Origin: Aspidapion aeneum
Taxonomy: Eukaryota; Arthropoda; Insecta; Coleoptera; Brentidae
Assembly: GCA_963576565.1 (NCBI GenBank)
Contig: OY755038.1
Coordinates: 175,450,907 to 175,514,906 of the forward strand
Reading direction: 5' to 3'
DNA length: 64,000 nucleotides
Shown here: one piece after another, positions 29,260-60,109 of the stretch
How the letters are laid out: every line of letters begins with the position of its first letter
How positions within the stretch are numbered: the first letter of the stretch is position 1
The notes under the pieces: model-generated
Told to the model about the DNA's origin: nothing
Database searches by the model: none
Seen by the model: the letters and a program-made list of their open reading frames with translations, nothing else
Position numbers and translations under genes: made by a program

Positions 29260-29260
29260 C

Positions 29261-29320: not shown

Positions 29321-29323
29321 ATG

Positions 29324-29650: not shown

Positions 29651-29655
29651 ATTAT

Positions 29656-29743
29656 TTCGCCACACTGAAGCCTGGTGGTTTGAGATTTGTAATTTATTTT
29701 TTCAAATTAATAAAAGTCGTTTTTATTTATTTATTTATTTATA
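29656..29743 (+). mobile_element. 5'-truncated LINE tail, second copy
   Basis: ttcgccacactgaagcc...aataaaagtcgtttttattt matches the 3' tail of the LINE at 18361-18449 almost base for base, including the (TTTA)n end. Only about 90 bp were copied, typical of extreme 5' truncation in target-primed reverse transcription. Confidence 0.88.
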
Positions 29744-30735
29744 AATTAAATCGACCTATATTGGTGTTTTTTAAAATTTTTAGTTGTTCTCGGCACTATA
29801 GTATTTTGAATAAAATCAACATATATAATCTCCAGTTTATCACAAGAGTACAATTAAAATTGATAATTTTTTAAATATTCAAAAAACTCTATAATTTCAG
29901 ACATTTTTTAATAACTTACAACTTTTAATTTTCAAGCACCAAAGTTATCGAAATGCGATTACGACATAGCTATTAGGATGTTTTTGGTCAGCACATCCAT
30001 TACTACAACCGTAGTTATCGTTATTCTGGGTCGACGCAGTAGCGACCTGTCATACCGTTATGTTTGCTAACTATAACGGACGTGACTATTAACGGAGATT
30101 GCTTTGTAAGTCACGCAGCAGGAAGGAAGAGCTGTAGGAAGGGCTGTAGGGATGGAATTACCTGCGTGACATTGATCGGAAAGAAAGGGTGAAAGTTATG
30201 TTATAAGGAAATCTACAACTGCTTATTTCTAGGGCACTTACCTAGTCGATTTAGTTGCTGCTTCTCTGCAGGGCCCTGTTCACAACATCACCATTATCAA
30301 GTTGATTGTAGGTAGCCCTATTTGGTTATTTGGTCAAGTTTAAAACACCGGAAAAAATGTCACTTTTGTTGAAAGTAAAAAAGAACAGGAAATTATGTTT
30401 TCTTTTTAAGAAAGCAGAAATTTTGAAAATCTCATGATTCTGCGCATTGCATTGAATGTGCCCAAATATATTTAGAAAGTTGCAGGTAAGAAGGAAATGC
30501 GCGGGAGGGAATTAAAAATAGGAAAAAAATTAAAATTAAAGGGAAATGCTTGTGCGTAAACAAGTTATGATATTGATATTTGCAATAAATAACAAGATGA
30601 ATGTGTTCCAAATTTATATGTTTTTTATGTTTTGGAGAGCTACGATTATTTTTATAATTGTTTTTGCAAGTTTAGAATTATTATTTTTGTCGACAAAAAC
30701 TTGTTTTTATTAACGGCAAATATAACCACAACTAT
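29744..30735. other. Non-coding spacer between copies B and C
   Basis: About 1 kb of AT-rich sequence without a supported gene. A short GC-richer patch around 30020-30190 has no recognisable features. Confidence 0.4.
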
Positions 30736-31079
30736 AACGAAATTGACGTTTACAGTGACTGACGAGAACATTATTTACTTGGCAAGTTCATTTTTACTGC
30801 AAATGTTGCCAGGGCTTTAGTTTCTGAGATATTTACAACGATATTATATTATGACCTTTAAACTACAAATAATTTAAGCAATCGCCTTCTCTCTACACAA
30901 AATTAAAAAATATTGTGTAGCATAGGCTGCACAGGAAAAAATATATTAAACTTAGGTATGATTTTTTTTTTACTTTTTAATATAAACATGCTCCCTCCCC
31001 AAAGCGACTGTCACTAGTCTCTGGATCCTAAGCTAACTAAAGCCTAAGATATTAAACATATGTAACTAATCTACGTTTC
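30736..31079 (+). repeat. Triplicated segment, copy C
   Basis: It runs from aacgaaattgacgtttacag to taatctacgttt and is the most complete copy. Its right end overlaps the last nine or so codons and the stop of the minus-strand reading frame at 31052-31719. In copies A and B no related coding sequence follows. Confidence 0.85.
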
Positions 31080-33400: not shown

Positions 33401-33404
33401 ATTA

Positions 33405-35727
33405 TGTAGCAGATTTCATTTAGTGAATTTTGCAGAACTAAATCGTTTTCTTATTCTAATAGTGTTATTTCCCGTCGGTTTGGTTTTACAAGACTATGAA
33501 ACATTTGGGGTGTTTTAACAAGTATATAATCGTAAAACTTCTATTAAAAATTTATGGTGCTTGTCAGCCCGTTTCCAAAAATCTGTTTTCTTAAATAAAT
33601 TGTTTAGTTATAAAAAATAAGGTTTTGTGAGAAACATCTTTTGGGTATAATAAAATTATTGTCGGCAATCCTTTTTAAGACTTCATAAAGCACATGTTGT
33701 ATTCTCCTAAGATACAGTTATGTTCAAATGTTTTGTTTAAACTGTCAAATAATCAGATTACGGTTTGCACCATTGAACCGTACGAAATTTTGCAAAAAAA
33801 CTGATACCTAACAAGACAGAGTTTTCACTAATTAGCATATATGCGTATCTACCTTCTTCGTTGAACTCACTGACCACGCTGAGTTATATGGAGAAAATTT
33901 ATCTATTTTCAATCTAGCCACTGTCGACGGCGAAAAATGTATCTTCCATATGATCAGAATGCGTAACTACATTTTTCTTTTTGTGTGGAAAAACTTGTTC
34001 ATTTATAATATATAGTAGCATTTGTCTTTTGACGATGTTAATTAGTTCCATCGAAATACGGGAACCAAGTGTGCAAAATTAAAAGAAATCTGCAACTTTG
34101 TACTTTAAGGAAATTAGGAACGATTGGCGTCTAGATTTAATATGTTTTATAATATAGGTTCAACGTCGTTTTTTTAGTCTAAGGAGGTCTTTAAAAAATA
34201 ATTTTCTTGTTTATAATTTTGACAAAGCCAATCCATTTTCAGATCTCAAAGGCCTATATATAAAGGCATTTTCAAAATATATTTTAATTGGCAAGGCAAT
34301 TTTCTTTTGTAATTAAGTAAATTTTGTTTGGCCATTCATTTAAGATTCTTTCCTTTAGAGGGTAATATTGGGTGACTTTTGGTTTTTCTATTCTTCTCTT
34401 GTAAAATTTTTAAGATAAGTTCATTTTCACATCACTTTCTAGTACCATTTTAAGTAAAGATGTACAGATACCAATGTTGATCTAAGCCTCTCCATTTTGA
34501 TTGGTTTAAGAGATCTTGCTGATCAAGGGTCAATGGTACCCGCCCTTTTTGTTTAAGCCAAGCCTATTCATTTAAGGGCCATTTTAAAGAAGGGTGGGAA
34601 AAAAGTTTCTTTTTTGGAATACGAAATATCAAAGTTGAGTTTCGATTTTGACACGACAAAAGTGAGTTTTGGTTAGAAAGTCACATTTTTCGAGTTGCGA
34701 GAGTTTTATCCCCATTTTTGAATGTAAGTTTTTCTTCCGGCAAAGAAATGCTTGTCATTTCTTTGTCATCCATCTTCTTTAAAATGGCTAAAACAAATAC
34801 AACAACTTTGTATATGTCCTTAATGAACTTATACATTATAAGATTTTCTTTTGTTTATTTAAAAGAAAACCTTTACTTTTGTTTTTAAAATTTGTCGAGT
34901 TCTTTACAGATTTATCAAAGTTAGTTCAAAGAAAATCAGATTTTAAATTAAATAAATGCATAGAGAATAATGTAAATTTTTAAAGTTGTGATTAACAATA
35001 ACTATCAAATTTAGTAATACGATTATTGCATCGTTTACAAAATCATTTGTAACCTTTGAAATTGTAATGAAATTCATCATTTTTTTTTTAAATAAAATAT
35101 AAACCTTGTGTAAACCAGAAACAATCTCTTTTTATTAAAACAGGAAATAATTAAGGCTATAAACCAACATAAAAACCAAGTTAAGTTGTGTCAAGAAGTC
35201 TCTTTAGCTAACTTTGGGTATTAATTAGTTTTGTTCATTTAATATAGTTGCAATTTACAACTTAGCTTGATTAAACTTGGAAAACTTTAATTCAGCATCT
35301 AAATGAAACTATAAAAGTAAATAAATAATTCTAAATGAAAATAAAAACCTTATCTTTAAAAAAATAACTGTTATATTTTCTTATTGTTCAAAATAGTAAA
35401 CTTTAACATTTCTACATTTCATAAATAAAATAAAAAAAAAAAACAAAAGAATTCAAGTAAAAAAACTTTACATACACGATATGTGCGAGAAAATACATGA
35501 AAGATGATTTGTTTGGTAAGTGATATATTTAGTTTACTAATAAGGTGATCCAGCCAAGAAAGAATCAACGTTCCTGGGATACTTCTGCAGTTGTCGATCC
35601 GTATCCACTTTTGTTGTCTACCAGTTCCACTTGAGATCTTAATTAGGTAGTTCAAACAAATTTACACCTAGTTATGCTTCGCAGAAGTCAGCCTTTTATC
35701 ATTAGTATATCCGCTCGCCACGTTACA
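33405..35727 (+). repeat. Left LTR of the giant element (2323 bp)
   Basis: Begins tgtagcagatttcatttagt and ends cgctcgccacgttaca. By eye it is about 96% identical to the right LTR over the first few hundred bases. It lacks about 95 bp that the right LTR has around 52340-52505. It holds no credible gene; the short minus-strand frame at 35419-35655 is not conserved in the right copy. Confidence 0.9.
34255..34265 (+). promoter_or_regulatory. Possible TATA box in left LTR
   Basis: tatatataaag in a GC-richer local context (ggcc before it), conserved in the right LTR at about 51659. Plausible as the U3 promoter but untested; many TA-rich strings occur in this DNA. Confidence 0.3.
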
Positions 35728-35730
35728 ATT

Positions 35731-35742
35731 TGGAGTCAGGCA
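35731..35742 (+). promoter_or_regulatory. Candidate primer-binding site
   Basis: tggagtcaggca lies 3 bp after the left LTR. It starts with TGG, the complement of the CCA end of tRNAs. The tRNA species was not identified. Confidence 0.45.
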
Positions 35743-36612
35743 TTTAGGGTTTTTAAATTTTTGCCAACAAAGTTATTTTTTCTCTTATTTCAATTCACTT
35801 TTCTTTTCTGCTAGCTACTTTTCTTGCTGAGGTTATTCTGTTAACCTATATTTTAATTTTTTTTCTTTGAGGTTATTTCGTTAACCTAGGTTATAGTTTC
35901 ATTATTGAGGTTATACAGTTAACCCGTCATTTGGTTTTCATATTTTTTTAAAGTAATTTTCATTGTCATTATAGTTTATTTTAATTAAAATAGAAAATTG
36001 GTACAGTTGGCAATTTTTAAAATATTGGTTGGTTTACTTTATAAAGAGTTCAATTAATGAATACAGATGTATATAGCTGAGTTCATAGCATTTTCTTTAT
36101 ATCAGTAGTAACTTCAAGACTACAGAAAATCATCAGTTTTCCAGGAAAGCATGAAGGCAAGGAGGATAGAAGAAAATTCTGCATGTTTTGTGTGTATTTT
36201 TTTTCAGCACTAACCATTTTTATTTGAACGAGCTAAACAAAATAATTTAGAAAATTTTTTTATAGCGAATATTGCGGGAATTAGTTTTGGATAAATCGAA
36301 ACTCCTAACTAAAAATAATTTAGTTAGAATATTCAAGCTAAGTTAATGATCTCTATTTCTGACCATTGTTTTCTTTTGTTTTAATCATGTAACGTAACTT
36401 TTTCACTAAGGAGTACAAATTTTTTGTTTAAAAACAAATGAATCAAAAGTTGGTATTGTAAGTTACGTTTGAAATTATTAGTCATCACAGAGGTTCATTA
36501 ATTTAGTTTATTTTGAGTCTATTACGTGTGGTAATATTAATTATGCTCTCGAATCATGGGTAAAAGTCATATAAGTAAACATTGGTATTTTTTCTTTTAT
36601 GTTATACTTTTT

Positions 36613-37160
<548 letters not shown>

Positions 37161-37315
37161 AGTTTTCTTTGAATAACGGAGAAGGTTGATTGTAATTTTT
37201 TTTTTTTTCATTTTTTTCCCCACTAGGAAAAATAAATGTGTCGCATTAGTATCTACGTGTTAATTACGTTATATTCATGTTCATTTGCTGTACGTAACGC
37301 GGAATGAAAAATAGA

Positions 37316-38360
37316 TAGAACTCAAAATTTTTCTACGTTGTCCGACGCCTATTCTCCACCTCCTTCGATCCTGACAGTCATCTTCGGCCAGGTTTTTTTT
37401 TGGCTCATTGATTTTTGGATTGACTGTTGCCATTCCAGTTTAGGACGCCCTCTTTTTCTGTGCCCTACTGGTTACCATTCTAGGACCTGCTTTGGTAATC
37501 TTTCGTCGCTCATCCGTTGTACATGGCCGAACCATATCAGTTGCCTTTTTGTGATGTCATCCCTTATGCTTCCCTCTTCCCATTCTTTCTTTTATGAACT
37601 CATTTTTTATAAGATCTGTTCTAGATATTCTCATTGATCTTCTTGTTGCATCCATTTCGACACTTTTCATTTTTGCTTTATATTTTTCTGTTACGCGACA
37701 AGTCTCTATTCCATACAACAGCGTGCTTTTCACCATTGTTTCATATATGTTAAATTTTACATTCTTTTTTATCTCTCTGCTTCATAAAATACTGTTAAGA
37801 CAACCAATAACCTTTTTTGCTTTTACTATTCTTTTTTTCAGTTCGTTACAGTCTGTTCCCGTCTTATCAAATGTGACACCCAAGTATACATACTCATTAC
37901 ATGGAGATATTATTTGTTCATTTTCTAGTTCTAATTCACTTGATTCGTTTCCAATACATAAGTACTGTGTCTTGTCCACGTTCACTGTTAACCCCCACTT
38001 TTGGTATTCTTCCGTTAACTTTCTCATCATATACTCCATGTCTTCTTTATCATTAGCTACAATTACTTGGTCGTCAGCAAACTGTAGTGTGTATATGGTA
38101 AATCGGTTGTTAAGTTGTATTCCCATGCCGTGTACTTTGCGTTTCCAGTTTTTTAGAGCTACTGTGATATATATTTTAAAAGAGTTGGAGAGATACAACA
38201 TCCCTGTCTTAAGCCTTTCGTCACCAGGAATTCTTTTGAAAGTCGATTTCCAATTTTAATTTTAGATTTTGACCCTTTGTATAGTTCTTTTATCGCTTTT
38301 ATGTATGTATGATTGATATTAGTCTGCTCTAACAGTGTCCATAATTTTTCTACTGCAAAA
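37316..38360 (-). pseudogene. Non-LTR retrotransposon fragment, antisense, 5'-truncated
   Basis: On the minus strand the RT blocks are in order: KGLRQGCCISPT (about 38180-38215), then in a shifted frame FKIYITVALKNW, the catalytic LQFADDQVIVAND (about 38060-38100) and GLTVNVDKTQYLCIG. Downstream is a C-terminal region with VEMDATRRSMRISR (about 37620-37665) and IWFGHVQRM (about 37512-37540), a layout common in insect LINEs of the RTE/BovB-like and related groups. Frameshifts (for example at about 38180) and stops make it dead. It inserted into the giant element in antisense, so it is not that element's pol. Clade assignment is tentative. Confidence 0.82.
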
Positions 38361-38369
38361 TAACGCGAA

Positions 38370-41265
38370 ATATTTTTGCGCCATTCAAATGTACAATGTT
38401 CTTTTTTCTCTTTAGTTTTTTTTTTAATTTTGGGTAAATATTTGCTCGTTTTTTTTACAGAAAAGCAAGTCTTCTAATTTTTTTTTTGTAAAGTAATGCA
38501 AGTTTTATATCACAAAATGGTAGTTTCGCTCATATAAAAAAACCAAGTAATTCGTAAGTCTAACTGTATAAGATTACTTATACGTGAATATAGGTAATTT
38601 TCAGTCTATAATCAAATAAGTATGTGCATACTACTCGTTTTACTTATTTCTTCTTTCAGGAAATAGCTTTCATAACCATGTTTATTTAGGTTTTTACAAT
38701 TAGTCATTGCCATATTGCAGAAAAATCTTAAAAATATTTTAATTAGGTCGCGATTAATTTCTTTTCTCTGTAAAAAAGTATGCACTGGAAAATACTGCAT
38801 GTTTAAGCCAAACTACTAACAAACCGTTGAATAATTTTTTTGTGGTACATAACACAACATTGGGCCATGAGCCATTACATTATTGTGAAATTTTCTATTA
38901 TTGTTCTAATAGGTATATAGTCATCAACATTTACATCTTTTATCCACACGGATATATAACAAAAAAAAAACATTTTTATAGCGCATCTAGGATAACAGAA
39001 AACCTTTTTATATTTTCAAGAGCCTTGAACAATGCAAAACTCTAACCAATGTTTTTATTGTTAGATGTCAAAACTTATGTCATGTTGTTACCTGGTTTAT
39101 CCTAAAACAAATAACATTTTTAAAGTTAAATAAAGTACATCAAAATATTAAAAAAGAAAATCAAATGCTTAATTTCTCTATAAATGCAGTAGTAACAAAC
39201 ATAAATGTAATTAATAAATTAAACTAAACTATTAAAAGGAAAAGCACCTAAGCAGAAAAGTTTAAGCATTGCTTTTCTTGAAAATCTATAATTTTTCATA
39301 ACCTAAACTATAGCATACTCTTGTTTTTTTTTTATAGAAGAAGTAAAATTACTTTAAGGAAAAATATATCTAGAATATGGCATAAATTATTTTAATTGAT
39401 TATTAATTTTTAAATTGCCAATATAATTTTAAATTAAAATAATAAAAATAATATTAGATTAATCAGAGATAATAAATAATAATAAAATTAATATTAACAA
39501 AAAGATAATCTGTAAACATATTTTGGAAATATTGGAAAAGGAATAAGATCCTTTACTCCACACTTTGGGAATTCTTTATACTTTTGACAAAAGAAAAACT
39601 ATCCAAAGATTGCTTAATGGTTTATTTCATAAAATGATTCCAGACCGGTTTCGAGCCTCTGCTCATATTCAAGGGTATATTACTAGTATTTTGGCGATAA
39701 CAGGAAAGCAACAACTAAATACTGGTTCAGTACATAGAGATTTTTTTTTAGAAAAAAAGAGAAAAATCTGTAAACATGTTGACGCCTAATTTTCTTGTGA
39801 AAAGAAATGAAAAATTATTCCAAATTTTATAAATCTAATTAATTAAGTAATTAATAAAGCAACAATATAAAATTATATGCGAAAAGATTCACCTTTTAAC
39901 GTTTAACTAAAAATGCATCTATTAAAATTAATTTGAAAATAAACAAAACAGGTCAAAATTATTAACTATTGCTAAAAGACAATGAAGAGTTTATTTGGAA
40001 TCAATTTTCGAAAAGAAAGGCATAGATTGTCAAAGTCAATTCTTTCTTTTCGTAATAAAAAACACAACAATTATCAACAGGTTAACTGAAATTGCTAAAT
40101 CCTTTTTTGTTGTTTTGTTGTTCACTAAATTTTGCTGAATTTCATTTTATGTTAAAGAATAGGAAGTGTTTAAGTTAGTATTAGACCTTTGATACTGGAA
40201 ATGTTTGTACATGTTTGAAGAAGTAATTTGAGTAATGATAGTCTGTCCTGAGTTACTAAAGTGAAAAATCACGGTTGTTACTTTTAATAGTAAAAATTTT
40301 GTGTCCTGCTGCATATATTTGAAAGATCAAAATTTGTTTCAGATTATTGTATTTTTTTTTGTTTTGTTTTATAAGATTTTCTGTTTCACAGTTTATTTGT
40401 TGTGTAAGTTCTTAACGAAAAACATTAATACAACTTTCATGATTTTAAAGTTTCCATAAAAACTAAAATTATTCCATAGATTAAGTAGTAGACTTATTTA
40501 CATAGCAAAATAAGTTAAATGATTAAAACTATTGCAAAACTATACTAGTACGGCAAGAGCCAGGCGTATGCTTTATTACATCGTTAATTATATTCCATGC
40601 ATTGTTTTCTTTAATTTGGTCATTTTTGTTTGTTGTTCTCTTCTATCAATATAAAAAGTAAAAAAAGTTGTCTCTCAATGTTTCATGTCAGGTTTAGACC
40701 TACAAGTCGTTTCATTTGTTTTAAGAGCATTATTACTAATTTTAATATAAATACAGATTTTTACAGTATCGGTATCATTGAAATAGGCTATGTAAAATTT
40801 TAATAACCGAATACTTACAATTAATTTAAAAAAAAAATAGCCCAGAAAAACAGACATACAAACTACATAAGTCATTAAAATTCACAAATCAAGGTGTAAG
40901 TTGATGTGCCTGTGATTGTGACTTTGATAAGTTTTTGCTCATGCTCTCATTATTGGTTTCAGCCACAGCTTTGCGCAAGAGATGTCTCTGTGAAGATCTT
41001 TGGCAAAAAGTCTGCGAAGATGGTTCGGATGCTAATGTTTTCAAGTTTTTTTTTATTATTATGTCAGTCTACAGCTTTTCACATATTTATTAGTATATTA
41101 ACCATGCTTCAAACACTACTAATTTCTGGAAAAAATCGATATCACATAGCAGTATTTTTATGTTCAGTTTAAGGTTTTAATGTTTTTTTATCAACAATTA
41201 CAGACCTATGGTAAATTAAGCCAAAACAAAAATTCATGGAAAACAAGTAAATCCATGACGAATCT
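38370..41265. other. 2.9-kb AT-rich interior of the giant element, no gene
   Basis: Very AT-rich. Several frames of 60-90 codons have low-complexity, Phe/Ile/Lys/Asn-rich translations with no motif. No gag or pol signature could be found on either strand. Confidence 0.45.
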
Positions 41266-41269
41266 GATA

Positions 41270-41706
41270 CCTTCCTAAACCATTAGGACATTCACAGTGG
41301 ACTTTATGCTTTATCAGCTATGAAAACAGTTTTTTGTAAATATCTCAGAAACGAAAGCTCCTATGAAATTTTCGGTTATAACACAAATTATTGACAAAAA
41401 TATATTCTACTAAAAACAAACCTTCATTAGTGTAAATGAATTTTGACTCAAATCTAATCAGCTCGTGACAGTTTTCAATACTGTTTTATCTAAAACTCTC
41501 ATGAAAATCGGTTCAGCAGTTTAGGACCTGTCGTTTTACAGATACACATAAAGACAGACGTAAAGCCGATACTGCTAAGATAGGACCAAATACTCCAAAG
41601 TAACACTCTTTCGGCATTATCTCAAAAAAAATCAATTAAAAATTTCCGCCAAAACATTAATTTTCTTTTTAACAATTGCTATGCTGGTTAGGAAGATAAA
41701 AATGTA
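41270..41706 (-). repeat. Dispersed repeat R, nearly full copy, inverted
   Basis: On the minus strand it runs from atttttatcttcctaaccag through gtcctatcttagcagtatcg, cgagctgattagatttgagt and caataatttgtgttataacc to gctgataaagcataaagtcc. This is the same order as 33197-33404 followed by 53226-53480, which lets the interrupted copy be pieced together. Confidence 0.7.
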
Positions 41707-41738
41707 AATCTATGGTTTTTTTTTGTTCATTTAACAAA

Positions 41739-41739
<1 letters not shown>

Positions 41740-41787
<48 letters not shown>
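41740..41787. repeat. (AT)n microsatellite
   Basis: About 48 bp of AT dinucleotides adjacent to the end of repeat R. Confidence 0.92.
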
Positions 41788-41788
<1 letters not shown>

Positions 41789-41789
41789 C

Positions 41790-42583
41790 AATAAACAATT
41801 GCTGTTCAGTTCACAATTGTTTCAGCAAAAACAAAAGCAACTGGTCTTGTATAATTTTGCCCTGCTGATTTCAAAAATGCCTTCCGTTTTTTTTTCCTCG
41901 TATCCGCTCTAGTTTTTAGAAAAAAAAAATTGAATTAAAATTTTTCTTTACCCCGATAACTGTATATTGAAAATATCTTTATATTTTTGTTGCAATGCGC
42001 TTGATGTAAGAACATGCCTCTTATTCGTCATCATCAAGTTTATTTGTTTTAAGGTTTTTAGAGATTTTTTTAACCAAAATTGTGTTATATTCCCTATTTT
42101 TCTTTTTCACATTCGACTCGCTAAAGGGACTATTTTCCATACAACAATTTTTATGTAACGTATCAGACTATTTAATTTCGTAGGCAAAATTGACATATTA
42201 CCTCCACTTCACTCTCACTGGCGGCACAAACAATAGTCATATGTGTTGCAAATACAGTGGCGGCCAACAATCTAAGATTACTAAAACAACCAAGATTAGC
42301 TAAAAACATTAAAAAATTGTGAGGCACCAAAATGTGTTTTGATCAGTGTAATTAGTATTATTCGTCAAAAGTTATTTTTTAATTTGAAGGACAATTAATA
42401 AGTTTTGGTTTAAGTCATTTTTAATAAAACAGAAACAATTTTGAGTTTTTTTTTAAATAAATTAAGTACTTTTCCTTAAGCACAAAATTAACGCTTTGGT
42501 ACAGCTAATTTCAATGTTTTATTAACCCAAACGAATTTCGAGTATCTATCCACAATTGAACAAATCTCGGTTGCTAATATTGG
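41790..42583. other. AT-rich spacer inside the giant element
   Basis: No gene, terminal repeat or array could be supported. The 63-codon frame at 41967-42158 is hydrophobic but without recognisable features. Confidence 0.35.
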
Positions 42584-42619
42584 TTTTTCCCGAGGGGTCA
42601 TCAGCTTTCAACAGTACTG

Positions 42620-42990
42620 TACAAATTTCACAACAGTACCCGACAGTACCACGACAGGATCCAACAGTACTCGACAGTACACGACAGTACCCAACAGTAC
42701 TCGACAGTACCACGACAGGACCCAACAGTACTCGACAGTACACGACAGTACCCAACAGTACTCAACAGTACACGACAGGACCCAACAGTACCCGACAGTA
42801 CACGACAGTACCCAACAGTACACGACAGGACCCAACAGTACCCGACAGTACACGACAGTACCCAACAGTACTCGACAGTACACGACAGGACCCAACAGTA
42901 CTCGACAGTACACGACAGTACCCAACAGTACACGACAGTACGTAACAGTACTCAACAGTACACGATAGAATCCAACAGGACACGACAGTA
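42620..42990 (+). repeat. Minisatellite, about 11-bp unit cracagtacmc
   Basis: More than thirty copies of an about 11-bp unit (cgacagtacac, caacagtaccc and variants). All frames stay open across it, giving DST/NST/VPT-rich or YCRVL-rich translations that should not be taken for proteins. Confidence 0.92.
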
Positions 42991-43019
42991 CTCGACACAA
43001 TCCTCTTACCCGAAACAGT

Positions 43020-43392
43020 GGCGTAGATGCGAAAAGACAGGATGACCTTTTTTTTTTTGTTTTTTGGTCGCAAGTTTTTTGAGTGCGCGCTAAGGCCTTG
43101 TCGGCGTTCCCCAAACAGGATGACCTTTTTTGTTTTTGTGGGCGCACGAGTTGTGAGCGCGGCGCGGTTCCCCAAAGATGATGACCTTTTTTTTTTTTTT
43201 TTTTGGTCGCCAGTGTTTTGAGGACGCGCTAAGGCCCTACGGGCCTTCCCCAGGATGCGCTTTTTTTGTTTTGGTCGTAAGATTTGTGAGCGCGGCGCGG
43301 TTCCCCAAAGATGATAAGATGATGAGCTTTTTTTTTTTTTTTTTGCTCGCATGTTTTTTGAGGGCGCGCTTTGTCCGCACCCCCCAAGGCAC
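43020..43392 (+). repeat. GC-richer imperfect repeats with poly-T tracts
   Basis: Alternating versions of gatgacctttt(T)n, ggtcgccagtgttttgagga, gcgcgctaaggcc and gtgagcgcggcgcggttccc recur three to four times at roughly 60-120-bp intervals. They lie between the two minisatellite blocks of the TIR element. Confidence 0.75.
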
Positions 43393-43394
43393 GA

Positions 43395-43560
43395 CGACAG
43401 TACTCAACAGGACCCAACAGTACTCGACAGTACACGACAGTACCCAACAGTACACCGACAGGACCCAACAGTACTCGACAATACACGACAGTACCCAACA
43501 GTACTCGACAGTACGCGACAGTACCCAACAGTACTCAACAGGACCCAACAGTACACGTCA
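43395..43560 (+). repeat. Minisatellite, second block
   Basis: The same 11-bp unit as at 42620-42990, about fifteen copies. The two blocks are in the same orientation, so they are not arms of a palindrome. Confidence 0.9.
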
Positions 43561-44280
43561 GGACCCAAGTCCTGTTGGACGCTGTACAAAATTTTAGGGT
43601 GCCGATGACCCCTCGGTTTTTCCTCTATCTCTGTCTGAGAATTTCCGTAATTATTAGTTGTTTGATATACAGATATGCTTGTTTAGATCGCTAAAAGTTC
43701 GCAATTTTGATTGTATATGTATTTACAGTGCAATACCTAGTAAAATTTTTGTTGTTGTATTTATTGTTGTACAGTTGTTTAAATAAAACATGACTAAGCT
43801 ACTTATTCAATTTTCAGTTGTAAAATGAGGGGTTCAGCAAAAAATTTGGTAGATGTTTTAAGAATTTTTGTCGAATTGATTGTCTTTTTGTAATTTTTTT
43901 TGTGAATAGTTGAGAAGGAGGATTTAGCAATCAGTTTTTTTTGTGATTCCTGAATATGAATTAAATAGGTTTTTTTTTTGTTCACAGGATACATATGAAT
44001 TTGGATCACGATTCTACAGTCTTATTCCTACTCCATAAAATGTTTTATTTAGTTCGTACTTATTTCAAATAGTTAATTAATTGGTAGTTAGTTTCACTAA
44101 TAAGTAGATTAAAACAGTAGATTAGTCAGTAGATACAATTGTAGATCAGCTAATAAATAATGAGTACTATCCTGTGTTTGTGGTTTGACAAATAATTTAG
44201 AAATAATTATAATAATATTTAATGAGCATGGAAAAGAGAGTTTGTCTAAAGGTTGATTTGTCACTGTCGCTTTAGTCAGA

Positions 44281-44612
44281 GAGTTATAAATTAAGAGAGA
44301 GAGAGAGATAAATATTTATGAAGAAAAAAATGTAAGAGAGAAATAAAGATATATGGAAAAATAATTAGAGAGAGTTATTAATTGAACGAGAGAGATAAAT
44401 ATATATGAAGAAAAAAATGTATGTACAGAGAGTTATAAATTGATAGAGAGAAATAAAGATATATGAAAAAATAATTAGAGAGAGTTATTAATTGAACGAG
44501 AGAGATAAACATATATGAAGAAAAAATACATTTACAGAGATTTATAAATTGATATGTATATTGAGAGAGAGATAAATATATATAAAAAAGTATTTACAGA
44601 GAGTTATAAAAA
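44281..44612 (+). repeat. Degenerate (AG)n-rich tandem repeat
   Basis: Units of about 115-125 bp contain agagagttataaattgatag, gagagataaatatatatgaa and aaaaataattagagagag. About three copies, imperfect. Confidence 0.7.
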
Positions 44613-44639
44613 AAAAGTTAGTTTTAGTTTTTTTAAATT

Positions 44640-45300
44640 TCTCCTAATAGGTACTACAACTAAATCCTAGTCTACCGGTTGAACTCGCCATTCAACCGGC
44701 GGCACATAGTTCATTAAGTTGTCATTGGTAAAAAAGCGACAGATGATAAAAATGTTAAGTTTGTAAATAGTAGCTCATCCCCAGATAGGTTTAGTTTATA
44801 TACAGAAGAACAAGCTAGGAAGCTTGTCTAAGTATACCGAAAAAAGAGTAAAACCAGTCTGCTAACCGTTACTGAGGTTGTAATGTCCTTAGATAGTTTA
44901 AAAAATAGCCTAGATAGTAGTAGATAGTGCGTATAATGTTAAGGTTAGTGTGAAGCCGTTTTCAAAAGACAAAGAGTCAGAGAGTGCTAATGCCCCTGTC
45001 GCCCGTCTTCAAGAATTCTTGGAGATACCACCTTATAGTGGCTGCGATATCTTAGCTTCAGTGAATAGACGTATTCCTGCAGGCAGTAAGATCGCAGAGC
45101 CTTTACAACTTCCAAAGAGATTAATTTAGAGGTGTCTTCCTCAATACAGTCCCTTCTAAAAAAAATACTTGTAAACTTAGCGGATCTGACAGAGGATTTA
45201 GAAGAAAGCTTCAGACGAGAGCAGCTTGAAAGAGTAAAAACCTTGTAAGGATGTGGGACACGAAACAACAAAACATCTACATGGTATAGTCGAAAAATGG
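44640..45300 (+). other. Coding-like remnant, possible gag relic
   Basis: This 660-bp stretch is less AT-rich than its surroundings. The plus strand has two open pieces in different frames: one includes VARLQEFLEIPPYSGCDIL (about 44996-45055), and one near 45110-45247 ends in NLADLTEDLEESFRREQLER and a stop. The minus strand is also open from 45271 to 44987 (94 codons). The acidic/basic helical pattern of the plus-strand piece would fit a gag or other structural protein. I recognise no family, and the strand cannot be decided from sequence alone. Confidence 0.3.
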
Positions 45301-45309
45301 TGTAATTTT

Positions 45310-47780
45310 TTGTAAGTATTAGAATATTTTAGAACTAGGAGACAAACCACTAATGCAAACTTTAGTTCAACACAGAATAGAAACTAATAATTCACATCTG
45401 ATAGCTAGAGCACCTATAATGTAATTATTAAAGTATTATAAGTTAAAAAAGAAATAAGAAACGTTGTGCAAATTGTTTATTTCTACGAAATATTTAATAT
45501 AAGAAAAATTATTGATATATAAATAAGAAAATTTATTTTTAAATTAATTTTCAAGTTAGAATTATGTTTTTTTTAAAATATTTTTTAATTTTTTTTACAA
45601 TAAAATATATTTTGTTCAAACAAGAGTGTGCTAATCAGTGCACAATGTGATAGAATAGAGATATTTTGGCCATAAACAAGAAAAAACCGATAGGCATGCA
45701 GTCCTTTGTTTTTATCAATCAAAATTAAAAGGTATATTTTTAAAACAAAAATTAAGCATATTTGAGTAAAAAACTCATGTCACTTTAAAAATTAATTCTG
45801 AATCAACTCATTCGAGTGCAATGGAATCAATAGCAAATCTTCAAAAAAATCAGTCTATGTTATCGCAAGCCTCGCCTTCTACACTTGTCATATTTATATC
45901 CTGATGATTGTATGGGTCAAGAAGATTTTTTTTAACCTCAATAGTTAAATTCTTGAGTTTTAGTTTTTGTTTTCGTGATCTAACTGAAAATGTTGAACTT
46001 ACCGGATCAAATGTATCAATTACTCTATTAAAAACATCTGTAATAGTAATAGTTCTACTGTTCTTTTATTTTTCCTAAAACATAATAAGATCTTCTGCTC
46101 GTTAAACGAAATATGCGTGCCGAGTTTCAATAAAATCGAATAAACCCTTTTCGAGTTATGCTTAAAAATAGAGTAATCAACACATACATACACACACAAC
46201 TACATAAAACATGTGCAACCCTACTTTTTTGAATTTTATAATTATTCTATGTGACACAAATTTGACAAAACAAGAAAAAGTTGAATTTTAGGTCTATATA
46301 TTCTATTGTTTTTATAGGACAAAGCAATATAGTTTGTTTATACTTTTGCAACTTATGTTATATTTACGCCTAAAAATGGAATTTCGCAATTTTTCGCAAA
46401 AGTTACTTTGTGCTATTTGAGGTGATATTCCAGGGCATTGTGAAATACTATTCTAATATCAATCATTTGCAATCAATTTTTATTTTGTTTTTGGCTCTAA
46501 GTAAAAAGAAATATGAAATAATTTATTTAAGCCATAAAAGTGCTTTATTGGTTTAAATTTTGAATTATAAAATTTTTAGTACGTACCCTCATTATTGCTC
46601 TCCATCAAAAAAAAAAAAAAATGTTGACTAGACTACTATCCAAGGGAGTGTGCGCAGTTTTGGCTAATTCCATTTTTTTGACCTTTTGATTGGACGACAT
46701 GATTAAATGGAGATTTATATAAATTTAATAACTATTTTGAAAGTCGCAGCCGTGATCTGAAATTTTGCCTATAATGGCCAAAATTAAATGGATTTATCCC
46801 ATAGTGCAGTGTGCTAATTAATTTCCGTTTTGTATATTTTGGCAAATATATACACATCATTGTCTTCTATACAGGGCCTTATACAACTCAATGACACACA
46901 TATATATTTTTTTTTGTTTCGGGATTGTAATACCTATTACACATTAGTTAAGTTCCTAGTAAACCTAGGTATATTATTAGATATAAGTAGTAGAAGTTAG
47001 AATAACATTTTAAACATAAGATAACCCCGTTAAATTGGCAGACAAGGGCAAATAGCCCTTAAATCAATTTAAAGAGTGTTAGTATTAGATCTCAACATCC
47101 CACTAACTTGTAAATACTAAGAATGTAATTTCTGTTCAATAAATCAAATCAACTCAAAAACTTTATTGATTTTTTTTTGTTTTAAGCTTTTATTTAGCAA
47201 TTTTGCTACAATGTTTTCTTAAATTAACGTAAAATTATATTCAAATTTATAAAATAAATAAATAAGTATAAACTAACACTATATTAATAAAATTTATTAA
47301 CCAGCTATTGAAAATAAATAAACTTTTAATTTTTTTTTTAATTTTCTTAAGTTTGGTTCATTTTTAACTGACACTTTTAATTTATTGTATTCACTCAAGC
47401 CTTTTGAAAATATAGATTTTTTTTTGAACAACTAATTTTGATGTGGTGCTTAAGTGAAAATCTTCGTTAGACCGGGTATTGTAAGTGTAATATTTAGATT
47501 TAAAATTGTTTTAATGATTATGGTAGCAATTATTAATTTTACAAATAAAAATACAAACATTATAAAATAATAAATTTTTTTACATTATTTAGCCAGTTTA
47601 ACTTCTTTAACATTGTTTTTATTTTGATATATCTATCTTCATTTAATTAAATTTGTAATTTTTCCAGAATGTCTTCATTAGCTAAGTATATAATAGTTGA
47701 GCAATCTAAAAAAAATAAGGAAAAATTATTGTGTTGTATACACAGTTTTTTTTTGAGAAAAATTATAAATGATAACTTAT
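45310..47780. other. 2.5-kb AT-rich interior of the giant element, no gene
   Basis: No reading frame of note. About 46085-46200 has taaacgaaatatgcgtgccg and gagtttcaataaaatcgaat followed by an (ACAC)n-type tract, like the word-plus-microsatellite pattern in repeat R, so it may be another repeat fragment. Confidence 0.35.
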
Positions 47781-47789
47781 TCTTTCTAA

Positions 47790-48180
47790 ATATCCAATTT
47801 TTGCTGCTATTATGTAGATGATATTTTCGTCGTATAAATTAAACTTTTATTTTGAGTCTACTAGAATCCCTAGTTATTTGAATGAATCCACAATTTTCAA
47901 TTTTTCATTGTTTATTTTAATTTCCAAATTTAATCGATTACTTTTCAAATTTATTGTCATGCATTTCGTTTTATTAACATTTAACTTTAATTTGTTTGTA
48001 TTTAACCAATTTAAAACTAATTTTAAGTCAGAATTCTTCCTTTTAAATAAATTAACGTATCATCTGCAAACATCTGAATACAACGATTTTTTTAAATGAA
48101 TGGTAAATTGTTTATCTAAAGAATAAATAATAATGGCCCAAATTTACTTCCCTGAGGTACCCCAATTTTGATTATTTTTT
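47790..48180 (-). pseudogene. LINE reverse transcriptase fossil (CR1/Jockey-like), antisense
   Basis: The minus strand encodes KIGVPQGSKFGPLLFI (about 48130-48175) and, after frameshifts, MFADDTLIYLKGR (about 48035-48075), the two most conserved RT blocks, followed by a Lys/Asn-rich segment resembling the region after the FADD box. Many frameshifts are present. It is a short, old fragment within the giant element and antisense to env. Confidence 0.7.
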
Positions 48181-48534
48181 TTTTAATGATAATGTGTTTA
48201 TTATTATAGTACCTTGTTTTCTGTTAAATTAATAATTTTTAAACCATTTTATGAGTTCCCATAAAACAAAAAAATTTTTAGAGAACAAATTGATAACACA
48301 TGCCTAAATGCTTGAGTATTGTGTTTTAATTTTACCACTATAAAGAAAAACAATTGAAAAATTGTTCAGTTGCATTTTGTTTTTTTTTCTTGATTATTCT
48401 TCTTTTGTTTGTTTCATGTAACATTGCGTTATTAAGTCGCATTTCTTTTTGTTTTTTTAAAAGATTTACCTATAAAGAGCAATTGTTATTGATTTCCCCC
48501 CTATTTGTTGTTATTAAACTATACTGCGAGTAAT

Positions 48535-48545
48535 CTTTATTCCAG
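48535..48545 (+). promoter_or_regulatory. Splice-acceptor-like site before env
   Basis: tctttattccag immediately precedes gaagATG at 48546-48552. A pyrimidine-rich tract ending in CAG just before the env ATG is what a spliced subgenomic env mRNA would use, as known for retroviruses and insect errantiviruses. The matching donor was not identified. Confidence 0.45.
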
Positions 48546-48549
48546 GAAG

Positions 48550-50540
48550 ATGACACTACTGCCGTTTCTTTCTTTTCCCTATATACTGAGCAGCCTCTCA
48601 ACGAACACAACCGATATCATAGCATATAATTGTCAAGACAAAACTACGGAGCTAACGAAACTGTCGCTGTTAGGAGTCGTTCCCTGCCGTGACCCGAAAA
48701 ACGCAACTTCATCGGTTTCACCAAGAGTTCAATTGATCCAGAAGAGTGAACATGTGTCAGTCCACACATATAATTGTTTAGTGATGGTACAACAATTGGT
48801 CCAAAGATGTGGTATGTCCTCACATACGAGTGCTGTTCCTGGTGGTTTCATGAAAGTTGTTCAAACTGTCAACAGAGAAGCACGCATTAAAGCTCATAAA
48901 TTCAGCACCTTAAATCTAAAAGGAATAGGTGCTGGGCTCGTTACGCAATTAAGTCTTAATGGCACCACAGAAATATCAACAACCATTCATGGACATGACA
49001 GTCCTGATGGAACTTGCCAAGGCGAAAAATATACAGTAGGAGAAACCGTATTCGAGAACGTAATAGTCAATGCTGCGATTAGAATTAAGCTTTTTGACTA
49101 TCAAACGACAGCTAACGAAGATCGAAATATAATACACCTTAAATCTGGTACTATTTGTTCCTTTAATGATGACTACTGTTTTGCCGATCAAGTAGGAGAG
49201 GATGTATGGGAACAAAACTATGAAGAAATGTGTCATTCCCGTGGAGTCAACGTACTATTCGAAGGAAATGCAACCATCTTAACAGTTAGTAAAAATCCCA
49301 TCGTTCGTTATGTAGTTGTGGATACTGAAGATACAGTGTTTGCACTTAAGTTAACAAAAACAGAAGAGTTATGCCATCAGAGAGCATGGCAGACGGAGCA
49401 AAACCGGCTATTTATTATCGTAGAAGACGAGTTGGGCTTCTCCTACAAAAAGTCACTACTTTTAGCCGAAAACACTGAGCTGATGGCTCACGTTTTAAGC
49501 AAGCTCCTATTCCTAGAAATTGCTGTTAAAAAACATATGGCAGAACTAGTTTATGACGCCATAGTGAACTAAGAGAGGCTTTGCTATCTAACCGCATAGC
49601 TCTTGCCCAACAATCACCTGAATTGATTGGTAACTTAATCAAAGAATCTTCGGGATATATTGGACGCGTCATGGGAGAGGTCCTTTATATTGCCCGATGC
49701 AAACCTGTGATAGTAGATTTTCGGCGAACCAAATCATGTTATCAAGAGTTGCCGATAGTTTTTCAAAACAAGTCGATGTTCAGGACACCTATAACGCACA
49801 TAATAACCGAATTTGGAACCGAAGTAGATTGCCAGAGTTTACTTCCCGCAATGTTTTATCTTGAAGGTGGTTGGGTCGAGCTATCACCAAAATTGAGAAG
49901 AACAGAGTCAGCGTTAGTTCTCGATGTCAATGTAGAACAAGATACCATAACTCTATCAAACATTTCGCCAATTAGTTCACATGGTATTTACACAATGGAG
50001 GAGACGAAACTGTTCCAAAATACCCTACTTTTCCCAAATGAAAAGAGATCAATTAATAATGAGGTGGCTCGTCGAATTACAGGGCGAAGCACAGAGTTTA
50101 ACAAATTATATATGCCAAACTTATTTAATAAAAATGAATTTAAAAATATTGCAACAACGGCTGCCGCAGAAGTTTGGGGTTTTTTGTCCTACATGGGAAA
50201 CCTGTTTTCGATATTCGGATTTCTACTAACACTTTTCCATTTATGCAGCTATGCAGCCAGCCTTATACTTAACTACTTTACCATAAAGAAAGTGACCAAA
50301 AACCATCCAAAGAGAAGACGATACCTCTGGGCAAGTTTCTGGAACTCTTTGACACACAGATACATCTACAAATTGCATAGTGAGTGGGTGAAACAAGAAA
50401 AAGAACTTGAACGGGAACGTTCCAATGATTTGGAATTGGGCGTAGTTGCGTGTAGCAATACAGAAAATTCGGCTAGTGAAAATAAACAAGAGACATTGTA
50501 CCCCAAAGTGTGCCATAACCCAAACTGTATAAACCCATAG
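48550..50540 (+). pseudogene. env: Envelope glycoprotein gene, chuvirus-like, one frameshift
   Basis: Two consecutive frames make one gene. The first starts at the ATG at 48550 (an upstream in-frame start at 48505 lies before the acceptor-like site) and runs to a stop at 49570-49572. The second is open in another frame from about 49563 to 50540, so a one-base indel near 49563 is the only break. The first part has a hydrophobic N-terminus like a signal peptide (TLLPFLSFPYILSSL), a Cys-rich ectodomain start, CGMSSH at about residue 87, NxT/NxS sites and CFADQVGEDVWE. The second part has a membrane segment (about residues 208-232 of that part, GFLLTLFHLCSYAASLI) and a basic tail of about 85 residues. 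Size and motif order match the class III fusion glycoproteins of chuviruses, which have been reported as captured env genes of insect LTR elements. The assignment is from recognition only. It would mediate membrane attachment and fusion; in this copy it cannot be made as one chain. Confidence 0.72.
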
Positions 50541-50787
50541 ACTAGTGTGCTCTAGTGTTAAGTTAATAGAATTAATGCTTGATTAATGTCTAATTCAGTT
50601 ATGATTAAGTTTCATAGCACATTAACGCGGCGCAACCGCAAACGAGTCTAAAATTGTGGTTAAATGATGTAGTGACCTTAATTTAATTTACAGTAGTTTA
50701 GAATTAGGATAATCAGACGCTGATTGTTTGTCGTGATGAATTTTATTTCCAAAATATGAATATTTTGAAAAAAATTAATCAGTTTCT
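50541..50787 (+). other. 3' untranslated part of the giant element
   Basis: AT-rich stretch between the env stop and the polypurine tract, without open frames. Confidence 0.5.
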
Positions 50788-50788
50788 T

Positions 50789-50800
50789 TGAAGGAGGGAG
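50789..50800 (+). promoter_or_regulatory. Polypurine tract
   Basis: gaaggagggagg, 7 bp before the right LTR, in the place and of the composition expected for plus-strand priming of an LTR element. Confidence 0.7.
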
Positions 50801-50807
50801 GTATATA

Positions 50808-53225
50808 TGTAGCAGATTTCATTTAGTGAATTTTGCAGAACTAAATCGTTTTCTTATTCTAATAGTGTTATTTCCCGTTTGGTTTGGTTTTACAAGTCTA
50901 TGAAACATTTGGGGTGTTTTAACAAGGATATAATCGTAAAATTTCTATTCAAAATTTATGGTGCTTGTCCGCCCGTTTCCAAAAATCTGTTTTCTTAAAT
51001 AAATTGTTTGCTTATAAAAAATAAGGTTTAGTGAGAAACAACTTTTGGGTATAATAAAATTATTGTCGGCAATCCTTTTTAAGACTTCATAAAGCACATG
51101 TTGTATTCTCCTAAGATACAGTTATGTTCAAATGTATTGTTTAAACTGTCAAATAATCAGATTACGGTTTGCATCATTGAAACGTACAAAATTTTGCAAA
51201 AAAACTGAGACCTAACAAGACAGAGTTTTAACTAATTAGCATATATGCGTATCTACCTTCTTCCTTGAACTCACTGACCACGCTGAATTATATGGAGAAA
51301 ATTTATCTATTTTCAATCTAGCCACTGTCGACGGCGAAAAATGTATCTTCCATATGATCAGAATGTGTAACTACATTTTCCTTGTTGTGTGGAAAAACTT
51401 GTTCATTTATCATATATAGTAGCATTTGTCTTTTGATGATGTTAATTAGTTCCATCGAAATACGGGAACTAAGTGTGCAAAATTAAAAGAAATCTGCAAC
51501 TTTGTACTTTAAGGAAATTAGGAACGATTGGCGTCTAGATTTAATATGTTTTATAATATATGTTCAACGTCGTTTTTTTAGTCTAAGGAAGTCTTTACAA
51601 AATAATTTTCTGGTTTATAATTTTGACAAAGCCAATCCATTTTCAGATCTCAAAGGCCTATATATAAAGGCATTTTCAAAATATATTTTAATTGGCAAGG
51701 AAATTTTCTTTTGTAATTAAGTAAATTTTGTTTGGCCATTCGTTTAAGATTCTTTCCTCTAGAGGGTAATATTGGGTGACTCTTAGTTTTTCTATTCTTC
51801 TCTTGTAAAATTTTTAAGATAAGTTCATTTTCTATCACTTTCTAGTACCATTTTAAGTAAAGATGTACAGATACCAATGTTGATCTAAGCCTCTCCATTT
51901 TGATTGGTTTAAGAGATCTTGCTGATCAAGGGTCAATGGTACCCGCCCTTTTTGTTTAAGCCAAGCCTATTCATTTAAGGGTCATTTTAAAGAAGGGTGG
52001 GAAAAAAGTTTCTTTTTTGGAATACGAAATATCAAAGTTGAGTTTCGATTTTGACACGACAAAAGTGAGTTTTGGTTAAAAAGTCACATTTTTCGAGTTG
52101 CGAGAGTTTTATCCCCATTTTTGAATGTAAGTTTTTCTTCCGGCAAATAAATGCTTGTCATTTCTTTGTCATCCATCTTCTTTAAAATGGCTAAAACAAA
52201 TACAACAACTTTGTATATTTCCTTAATGAACTTATACATTATAAGATTTTCTTTTGTTTATTTAAAAGAAAACCTTTACTTTTGTTTTTAAAATTTGTCG
52301 AGTTCTTTACAGATTTATCAAAGTTAGTTCAAAGAAAAATAATTTTGTTTTTAATTGATAATCAGATTTTAAACTAGATAAATCAAATACATACAGAAGA
52401 ATGTAAATTTTCAAAGTTGTAATTAACAATAACTATCAAATTTATGTAAAATTAACTAAATAATATATTCTTTGTAAATCAATGTATAACTCCTAAAATT
52501 TAATGTAATACGATTATTGCATCGTTAACAAAATCATTTGTAACCTTTGAAATTGTAATGAAATTCATCATTTTTTTTTTAAATAAAATATAAACCTTGT
52601 GTAAACCAGAAACAATCTCTTTTTATTAAAACACGAAAGAATTAAGGCTATAAACCAACATAAAAATCAAGTTAAGTTGTGTCAAGAAGTCTCTTTAGCT
52701 AACTTTGGGTATTAATTATTTTTGTTCATTTAATATAGTTGCAATTTACAACTTAGCTTGACTAAACTTGGAAAACTTTAATTCAGCATCTAAATGAAAC
52801 TATAAAAGTAAATAAATAATTCTAAATGACTCTAAAATAAAAATCTTATCTTTAAAAAAATAACTGTTATATTTTCTTATTGTTCAAAATAGTAAACTTT
52901 AACATTTCTACATTTCATAAATAAAATTAAAAAAAAAAAAACAAAATATTTCAAGTAAAAAAACTTTACATACACGATATGTGCGAGAAAATACATGAAA
53001 GATGATTTATTTGGTAAGTGATATATTTAGTTTACTAATAAGGTGATCCAGCCAAGAAAGAATCAACGTTCCTGAGATACTTCTGCAGTTGTCGATCCGT
53101 ATCCACTTTTGTTGTCTACCAGTTCCACTTGAGATCTTAATTAGGTAGTTCAAACAAATTTACACCTAGTTATGCTTAGCAGAAGTCAGCCTTATATCAT
53201 TAGTATATCCGCTCGCCACGTTACA
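50808..53225 (+). repeat. Right LTR of the giant element (2418 bp)
   Basis: Starts tgtagcagatttcatttagt and ends gctcgccacgttaca, then the duplicated ATTA. Compared with the left LTR it has extra sequence around 52340-52500 (including aaataatatattctttgtaa) and scattered substitutions, so either the left copy lost or the right copy gained about 95 bp. Confidence 0.9.
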
Positions 53226-53229
53226 ATTA

Positions 53230-55790: not shown

Positions 55791-55810
55791 TTTTAACTTA
55801 AAAATGTAAT

Positions 55811-57887: not shown

Positions 57888-57931
<44 letters not shown>

Positions 57932-57947
57932 GTATGTCTGTCTGTCG

Positions 57948-60107: not shown

Positions 60108-60109
60108 TA

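Follow-up and report, generated by a model that had tools for sequence, protein, structure and literature searches.

Can an LTR element that carries an envelope gene but no gag-pol spread as a lineage? This question is raised by positions 33405-53225 of the window, the whole 64,000-nt stretch of Aspidapion aeneum DNA analysed here. The locus is an LTR retrotransposon insertion, with TG..CA ends, paired LTRs and a target duplication (Table 1). An earlier note on this DNA had described the paired LTRs with their TGTA/TACA ends, the ATTA duplication and a purine tract, all of which were borne out as parts of a single insertion; the tract reads GAAGGAGGGAGG, and the 3' LTR begins six bases on. The two LTRs are separated by a K2P distance of 2.5% (0.0254), corresponding to 58 substitutions in 2,322 aligned columns plus 7 indel events. 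The candidate primer site TTTGGAGTCAGGCATTTAGGG lies directly 3' of the 5' LTR, and the 64,000-nt window contains no tRNA with which to compare it. The first 400 bp 3' of the LTR are 94-96% conserved in five of the 20 LTR copies examined.

Table 1. Features of the insertion, with positions counted from the first base of the window.
Feature	Position	Strand	Remarks
Target site duplication, left copy	33401..33404	.	4 bp, ATTA
5' LTR	33405..35727	+	2,323 bp, TGTA..TACA
Conserved interior start	35728..36127	+	includes candidate primer site TTTGGAGTCAGGCATTTAGGG
Non-coding interior without gag or pol	35728..48549	+	mobile with the LTRs
236-bp tandem duplication	36613..37084	+	both halves match one stretch in the copies compared
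LINE reverse transcriptase fragment, antisense	37782..38473	-	found in other copies
Short repeat	39526..39735	.	the one portion of 38500-41200 with hits at other genomic sites among the matches listed
Host repeat copy within interior	41240..41706	-	
Nested insertion	42590..43616	.	short inverted ends CCGAGGGGTCATC, TTTTTC duplication, minisatellite core
env frame 1, N-terminal half	48550..49572	+	chuvirus-type fusion glycoprotein, PF24664, E 4.4e-75
env frame 2, C-terminal half	49557..50540	+	PF24664, E 1.4e-62
3' cis region	50723..50819	+	purine tract 50790-50801 and first bases of 3' LTR
3' LTR	50808..53225	+	2,418 bp
Target site duplication, right copy	53226..53229	.	ATTA

The glycoprotein frame reported just upstream of the 3' LTR is confirmed at 48550-50540 and identified as a chuvirus-type glycoprotein (Pfam Monjiviricetes_fusion, PF24664) with one frame break. 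Its two overlapping frames cover profile positions 18-330 and 339-650 of 653, and a full-length Monjiviricetes fusion domain is present, split over the two frames. The first frame matches a Phaedon cochleariae protein at 59%. Viral contigs yielded neither an env relative nor an LTR match, and phage records yielded no match. Among solved structures there was none for the first half of env and one unconvincing match (E 0.1) for the second.

The absence of gag-pol was likewise upheld. A six-frame Pfam search of 35700-48502 found none at E 0.1 or better, the sole polymerase-type match being one antisense LINE RVT_1. Decayed pol in sense orientation, which had been named as a finding that would count against the element being pol-less, was thus looked for by Pfam profiles in the interior and not found. 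Searched in the same way, the BEL element at 21.7-27.6 kb showed seven gag-pol families in one frame, with no rve match. A stretch at 44.6-45.4 kb was considered as decayed gag and rejected, because neither Pfam nor tblastn against the presumed gag of an intact relative gave a match. The earlier description of the 15-kb interior as antisense LINE scraps and AT-rich DNA holds, with the addition that it is part of what the copies of a mobile family have in common. The LINE piece was captured before the family spread, since it is present in other copies. The nested insertion is missing from two of these (E3 and E4) at the corresponding point.

Several lines of evidence indicate that the pol-less interior has moved together with its LTRs. 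Genome-wide, at least 52 LTR matches were found from 40 scored of 127 candidates, and the 2.7-kb segment 38500-41200 occurs whole or in part at at least ten loci (40 of 81 interior candidates scored); with scoring limited to these candidates, a complete parental element bearing these LTRs may be missed. Besides the window's own insertion (W), six copies are distinguished (E2-E7). Most of the interior aligns collinearly with E2, E3 and E4, and parts of it with E5, E6 and E7. The two stretches of E6, some 43 kb from each other, are counted as one copy, its status as a single insertion being putative. All four copies in which both outer ends could be read have separate 4-bp duplications (ATTA, TTAC, CCAT and ATGG). 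When nine 400-bp flanks were compared, none was common to different copies, and the sole match was between E3's own two flanks. In a tree of 23 LTRs, the LTR pairs were sisters (100/98 to 100/99) in all three copies with both LTRs, and their K2P distances of 0.0125, 0.0254 (window copy) and 0.0454 indicate different ages. An interior match was absent in five of 20 neighbouring stretches (L028, L029, L037, L038 and L040), and one of the 20 LTR copies examined (L020) was left unclassified, its end being incomplete.

Wherever the envelope gene was read (five copies: W, E2, E3, E4 and E6), it is present at least in part, with the second half gone from E4, and same-strand env matches lie 6 and 16 kb from two additional interior loci. 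The earlier note had proposed searching for several pol-less copies with env, and these were found, with at least ten interior loci and four separate duplications. The pol scan of the copies covered the extra 6.2 kb of E4 in sense frames only, with 5,000 bases of E3 lying outside it, and took in at most part of the additional DNA of E6 and of the loci C2:63.31 and C1:146.52. Two candidates for a parental gag-pol were rejected: the 6.8-kb extra DNA of E2 is a nested Gypsy element with its own 413-bp LTRs, and the gag-pol at C2:132.48 belongs to an old nested Gypsy element whose LTRs are 87% alike.

Because the interior is common to separate insertions and the LTR pairs are of three ages, a pol-less, env-bearing lineage has really moved. 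The locus thus very probably represents a family of large non-autonomous LTR retroelements that is pol-less, bears an envelope gene and moved with proteins from other elements; the earlier reading of a non-autonomous env-bearing element is supported by the pol-less interior in separate insertions. Given its repeated movement without pol, the element probably relied for its copying on the proteins of a related, complete element, and the family was presumably packaged in trans. Under this proposal, an envelope-carrying Ty3/Gypsy source copy would have lost gag-pol by deletion and taken in some 11-12 kb of unrelated DNA, namely the antisense LINE piece, the host repeat and AT-rich DNA. It would have retained both LTRs, the 3' purine tract and a putatively intact envelope gene. 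RNA made from the LTR would then have been packaged, reverse transcribed and integrated by Gag, reverse transcriptase and integrase from other elements.

The likeliest supplier of these proteins, judging from sequence similarity, would be an intact Ty3/Gypsy family with a chuvirus-type envelope in the same genome, which is the most likely candidate helper. In this related env family, 24 env matches have a frame of 690-692 aa, which is free of inner stops in 23. For instance, the intact env at C2:47.31 is preceded by RT, RNase H, H2C2 and rve in Ty3/Gypsy domain order, and its second half is 69% identical to that of the window env. The purine-tract region is common to the window element and the intact relative, the 3' cis region being 85% identical over 99 columns. 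Beyond the first bases, the LTR of the candidate helper does not match that of the window element. The relative's presumed gag, a 605-aa frame with no more than a weak zinc-knuckle match (E 0.015), precedes an aspartyl protease frame.

Other explanations would place the loss of pol, or the spread of the copies, elsewhere. That an ordinary defective provirus inserted with gag-pol and lost it later, while other DNA entered, is very unlikely. Nested insertions do occur in the window copy (42590-43616) and in others, but insertions that differ in duplication and flanks have this pol-less interior in collinear order, and LTRs merely 2.5% apart leave little time for pol to decay unrecognisably. The high interior identity between copies (about 82-98% in the main blocks) would suit genomic segmental duplication without retrotransposition, a reading made extremely improbable by the 4-bp duplication that each copy has of its own at the LTR ends and by the unrelated flanks. 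Similarly, it is barely plausible that the element is autonomous, with unrecognised replication genes in its interior. Repeated mobility is the one point in its favour; the longest sense frames upstream of env (234 aa opposite the LINE piece and up to 158 aa in the minisatellite) have no Pfam family match, nor do the remaining sense frames, and nothing in the interior matches the intact relative's presumed gag.

The earlier note had also raised an assembly error joining unrelated LTRs, which was not borne out, because the two LTRs of 33405-53225 are each other's sisters (100/99). A false join of two unrelated LTR copies, or their recombination around host DNA, is accordingly highly improbable. 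Some observations would fit it: one patch of the LTR pair holds 9 events in 60 columns, a clustering reached by 54 of 5000 random draws, against 273-277 of 5000 for windows of 80-120 and 196 to 3548 of 5000 on substitutions alone. Moreover, 12 of the 20 LTR copies examined are solo LTRs with a perfect duplication, and the ATTT directly 3' of the 5' LTR is close to the ATTA duplication. However, ATTT also stands 3' of the other five 5' LTRs, and the outer target duplication matches. Another copy of the host repeat of 41240..41706 appears to be interrupted by the insertion; once joined, the flanks match one host-repeat copy collinearly (487 columns, 65%), weakly so near the junction.

Past selection on env, as also suggested earlier, is not supported within the lineage. 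No env stop position is common to E2, E3, E4 and E6, as would be expected had the source carried an intact env. Changes found in only one of four copies altered the protein in a share of 0.713, where the non-coding spectrum predicts 0.750 (P 0.20; P 0.59 for the first half of env and 0.09 for the second), and they numbered 122 in all, with 130 expected. Env changes since the copies split thus fit neutrality and lend no support to selection. It is therefore unlikely that env was retained because it is functional, with selection maintaining the element's own envelope on helper-built particles. This would agree with a source that had lost pol but seemingly still had an intact env, with pairwise dN/dS of 0.56-0.87 in nine of ten pairs (1.05 in the other; three of the ten intervals lie below 1) against 0.83-1.40 in a +1-frame control, and with 4 new stops where 8.1 were expected. 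However, seven of the ten pairwise intervals include 1, and values in a control on the small LINE fragment range from 0.45 to 4.54. A satellite endogenous retrovirus with its own chuvirus-type Env, to which a Ty3/Gypsy helper would give Gag and Pol, can be put forward only tentatively. If true, helper-built particles, even from an env-less helper, could leave the cell that helper and satellite share.

Non-autonomous LTR elements are usually thought to retain just packaging and priming signals. A pol-less lineage with env that moved at least three times indicates that envelope and replication genes are separable, and that the envelope part of endogenous retroviruses can keep spreading without replication genes. 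Since the genome also holds an intact related family, the proposed trans-mobilisation is directly testable. Large retrotransposon derivatives (LARDs) reportedly have long LTRs and a long conserved interior without gag-pol, and are said to be moved in trans. The window family resembles them in its long LTRs and in a long gag-pol-less interior conserved between copies. LARDs are not known to have a coding gene, whereas this family retains env (PF24664).

Ty3/Gypsy elements with type III fusion glycoprotein envelopes are described as metazoan errantiviruses (Chary and Hayashi 2025, as cited in PMC13172572). Like such env-carrying elements, the window element has a chuvirus-type env just before the 3' LTR, a 4-bp duplication and TG..CA ends, and its intact relative shows the RT-RNaseH-H2C2-rve order; unlike them, it has non-coding DNA in place of gag-pol. 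Anakin elements, mosquito BEL/Pao elements with a chuvirus glycoprotein, also use such a protein as env, and the defective elements reported among them either have Pao domains remaining or are solo glycoproteins without LTRs (PMC7642597). Here, the relative is Ty3/Gypsy rather than Pao, and the window element is without any pol. Jingchuvirales glycoprotein EVEs occur in insects, including Coleoptera, with Gypsy fragments nearby; the study describing them reports no clear Gypsy capture, and two cases within complete transposon boundaries, in Bemisia tabaci (unclassified) and Anakin (PMC10084718). The present gene is of the same glycoprotein kind and also from a beetle host, but it lies within an LTR pair and has a related copy behind a Gypsy pol, which places a chuvirus-type envelope inside a Ty3/Gypsy-related LTR pair in a beetle.

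An LTR element, W, lies at 33405-53225 as the earlier note had claimed, with paired LTRs and their matching ends, the ATTA target duplication at both outer flanks and a polypurine tract at 50790-50801. The glycoprotein frame described before the 3' LTR is likewise present, as matches to PF24664, the Pfam Monjiviricetes fusion glycoprotein profile, in two overlapping frames. This envelope is the chuvirus-type glycoprotein, with one frame break in the W copy. Compared with relatives bearing a species name, it stands at 59% against Phaedon cochleariae and 39-52% against Ceutorhynchus assimilis, both beetles, so the host is probably one too. In PMC13172572, the chuvirus-type glycoprotein is named a type III fusion glycoprotein.

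Features of W and of the other copies of its family (E2-E7; C, assembly contig, positions in Mb)
Feature	Location	Strand	Detail	4-bp duplication	LTR-pair K2P (differences)
W	33405-53225		interior 15,080 bp	ATTA	0.0254 (58)
W 5' LTR	33405-35727		2,323 bp, TGTA..TACA		
W 3' LTR	50808-53225		2,418 bp, TGTA..TACA		
W env frame 1	48493-49572	+	PF24664, E 4.4e-75, profile positions 18-330 of 653		
W env frame 2	49557-50540	+	PF24664, E 1.4e-62, profile positions 339-650 of 653		
E2	C1:114.79-114.82		collinear with most of W interior, 12,132/15,080 bases aligned	TTAC	0.0125 (29)
E3	C6:91.91-91.94		collinear with most of W interior, 12,868/15,080	CCAT	0.0454 (103)
E4	C3:74.29-74.31		collinear with most of W interior, 12,064/15,080	ATGG	
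E5	C4:14.49		collinear with part of W interior, 4,667/15,080		
E6	C6:79.37-79.43		collinear with part of W interior, 10,210/15,080		
E7	C2:132.48		collinear with part of W interior, 2,777/15,080		

Gag-pol was indeed undetectable in W. In a six-frame Pfam scan of 35700-48502 (stops as X, cut-off E 0.1), the three sense frames gave no match to gag, protease, RT, RNase H or integrase, so the decayed sense pol that the note had named as its refuting case was sought by profile and not found; the sole match was a minus-strand RVT_1 of a LINE (E 1.6e-10). As a method control, a single frame of the BEL element at 21.7-27.6 kb matched seven gag-pol families, rve not among them. The LTRs of W have diverged by just 2.5%, so any pol carried in at insertion should remain easily visible; it was thus either absent when W inserted or removed whole. 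The sense frames of 44700-45350, where the extra 6.2 kb of E4 sits, faintly resemble decayed coding sequence, with no match there to Pfam or to the presumed gag of an intact relative. The BEL/Pao element itself (21237-28041) has LTRs of 465/466 bp, 98.3% alike and unrelated to those of W, and gag-pol in two long frames with no env seen.

In the assembly (1.286 Gb, 149 contigs; window at C1:175450907-175514906), the 3' LTR of W has at least 52 matches (40 of 127 candidates scored). Among 20 LTR copies examined, solo LTRs flanked by perfect 4-bp duplications account for 12; five are 5' LTRs followed by a W-like interior start (94-96% over 400 bp), two are 3' LTRs preceded by a W-like env tail (98%), and one has a truncated end. 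Comparison of the W interior with 20 stretches adjoining LTR copies left five without a match. The piece 38500-41200 occurs, whole or partial, at 10 or more loci including W (40 of 81 candidates scored), the remaining matches listed being a ~200-bp repeat inside it (39526-39735). Several pol-less copies were found, with env present at least in part in W, E2, E3, E4 and E6, where the note's check had asked for multiple copies with intact env; by these alignments the pol-less interior moves as a unit. The antisense LINE piece and a host-repeat copy (41240-41706) are common to W and other copies, so their entry predates the spread of the family. A nested element at 42590-43616 is missing at the same point in E3 and E4; it has short inverted ends CCGAGGGGTCATC, a TTTTTC duplication and a 10/30-bp minisatellite core. 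In the copies compared, both halves of a 236-bp duplication of W map to one stretch.

These copies also differ in losses and in extra DNA. E4 keeps both outer ends, but its env is missing the second half and most of its 3' LTR is gone; E6 comprises two stretches ~43 kb apart, perhaps separate insertions, its 5' LTR lacking the first 416 bp. The 6.8 kb extra in E2, with gag-pol frames at a TA repeat, was considered and set aside as a nested Gypsy, because it is bounded by its own 413-bp LTRs (98.8% alike); the E2 env is also split by ~3 kb that includes LINE-like sequence. E7 contains an old nested Gypsy, and in E5 BEL pol sits at a point where the matches to the window have 7 bases in common, the pattern of a nested insertion. 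E3, read except for 5,000 bases, has an RT-bearing 1.4-kb insertion at ~40.5 kb, and the extra 6.2 kb of E4 has no domain in the sense frames scanned. At C1:146.51 env and interior matches lie ~6.1 kb apart, near the 6.4 kb expected without gag-pol, with another 4.8 kb of extra DNA at that locus; at C2:63.31 the spacing measured between the matches is ~8 kb longer.

The perfect duplications of W, E2, E3 and E4 all differ, and among nine 400-bp flanks the only match was between the two flanks of E3. In a 23-LTR tree, mostly unresolved and nearly star-like elsewhere, the LTRs of each element are sisters in W (100/99), E2 (100/99) and E3 (100/98), and the false join of unrelated LTRs that could have undone the note's reading was not seen. 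The three pairs have three ages. In W, 2,264 of 2,322 aligned columns are identical, with 7 indel events. Nine differences fall in 60 columns (reached by 54 of 5000 random draws; 273-277 in wider windows; 196 to 3548 for substitutions alone), which hints at local exchange, leaving the LTR tree undisturbed. The two flanks of W, once joined, match a single host-repeat copy collinearly (487 columns, 65%, weak beside the junction); a second copy (19.4-20.0 kb), matched by the two halves in opposite orientations, is no help. Repeated-block families, mostly 83-96% alike and in both orientations, occupy 28227-31079 and 55810-60113, either side of W.

Past selection on env, which the note had also raised, was not borne out since the copies split. 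Stops number two in E2, none in E3, one in E4 and three in E6, with no position in common, as expected if the source env was intact. Pairwise dN/dS was 0.56-0.87 in nine of ten pairs and 1.05 in the other (three of ten intervals below 1), against 0.83-1.40 in the +1 frame and 0.45-4.54 in a small LINE fragment. A stricter test counted changes private to one of W, E2, E3 or E6 and took its expectation from the mutation spectrum seen in non-coding interior DNA. There were 122 such changes where 130 were expected; the share altering the protein was 0.713 (expected 0.750; P 0.20, by half 0.59 and 0.09), and new stops numbered four against 8.1. Since their split, the copies have therefore accumulated env changes about as expected under neutrality. 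Neutral decay would also leave an env as near to intact as that of W (no stops and one frameshift, against ~1.1 stops and 2-3 frameshifts expected if neutral).

PF24664 has at least 69 genome matches (68 of 228 candidates scored). The frame is 690-692 aa long in at least 24 of them, 23 of which lack inner stops; among the 12 best matches, 11 have a frame of 713-744 aa, nine of these lacking inner stops. Both groups have long open frames and many near-equal scores, which suggests recent activity. In one 692-aa copy, env is preceded by RT, RNase H, H2C2 and rve, arranged as in Gypsy (L042); the env of this copy is 69% identical to the second half of the W env, and identity over 99 columns around the purine tract is 85%, the LTR beginning TGTAACAG against TGTAGCAG (L043). 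The one 713-744-aa copy read, 31% identical, also follows Gypsy pol. A further 692-aa copy yielded a piece in which a 605-aa frame, placed as gag would be and with a weak zinc-knuckle match (E 0.015, below cut-off), precedes an aspartyl protease frame; neither frame matches the interior of W. Ty3/Gypsy elements with a chuvirus-type envelope are thus present, with frames open in the pieces read, and we infer that they mobilise the pol-less family. The string CAGGCATTTA, common to window 35737, just after the 5' LTR, and L042:2767, between pol and env of the intact relative, may be shared by chance. Near C2:132.5 Mb, two long frames of 864 aa (+) and 532 aa (-) that share weak, below-cut-off Endonuclease_7 and zf-MYST matches may belong to another mobile element.

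Among the literature matches listed (chuvirus, errantivirus and non-autonomous elements, with few subscription papers covered), no env-bearing pol-less family was recognised, which is no proof of absence. W differs from env-carrying Gypsy elements in lacking gag-pol, from Anakin, the mosquito BEL/Pao element with a chuvirus glycoprotein, in lacking Pao pol, and from large retrotransposon derivatives (LARDs), which are not known to have a coding gene, in carrying an env, and is therefore a full member of no family tested. By analogy, its family would work like a LARD or another non-autonomous LTR element of that sort, mobilised in trans.
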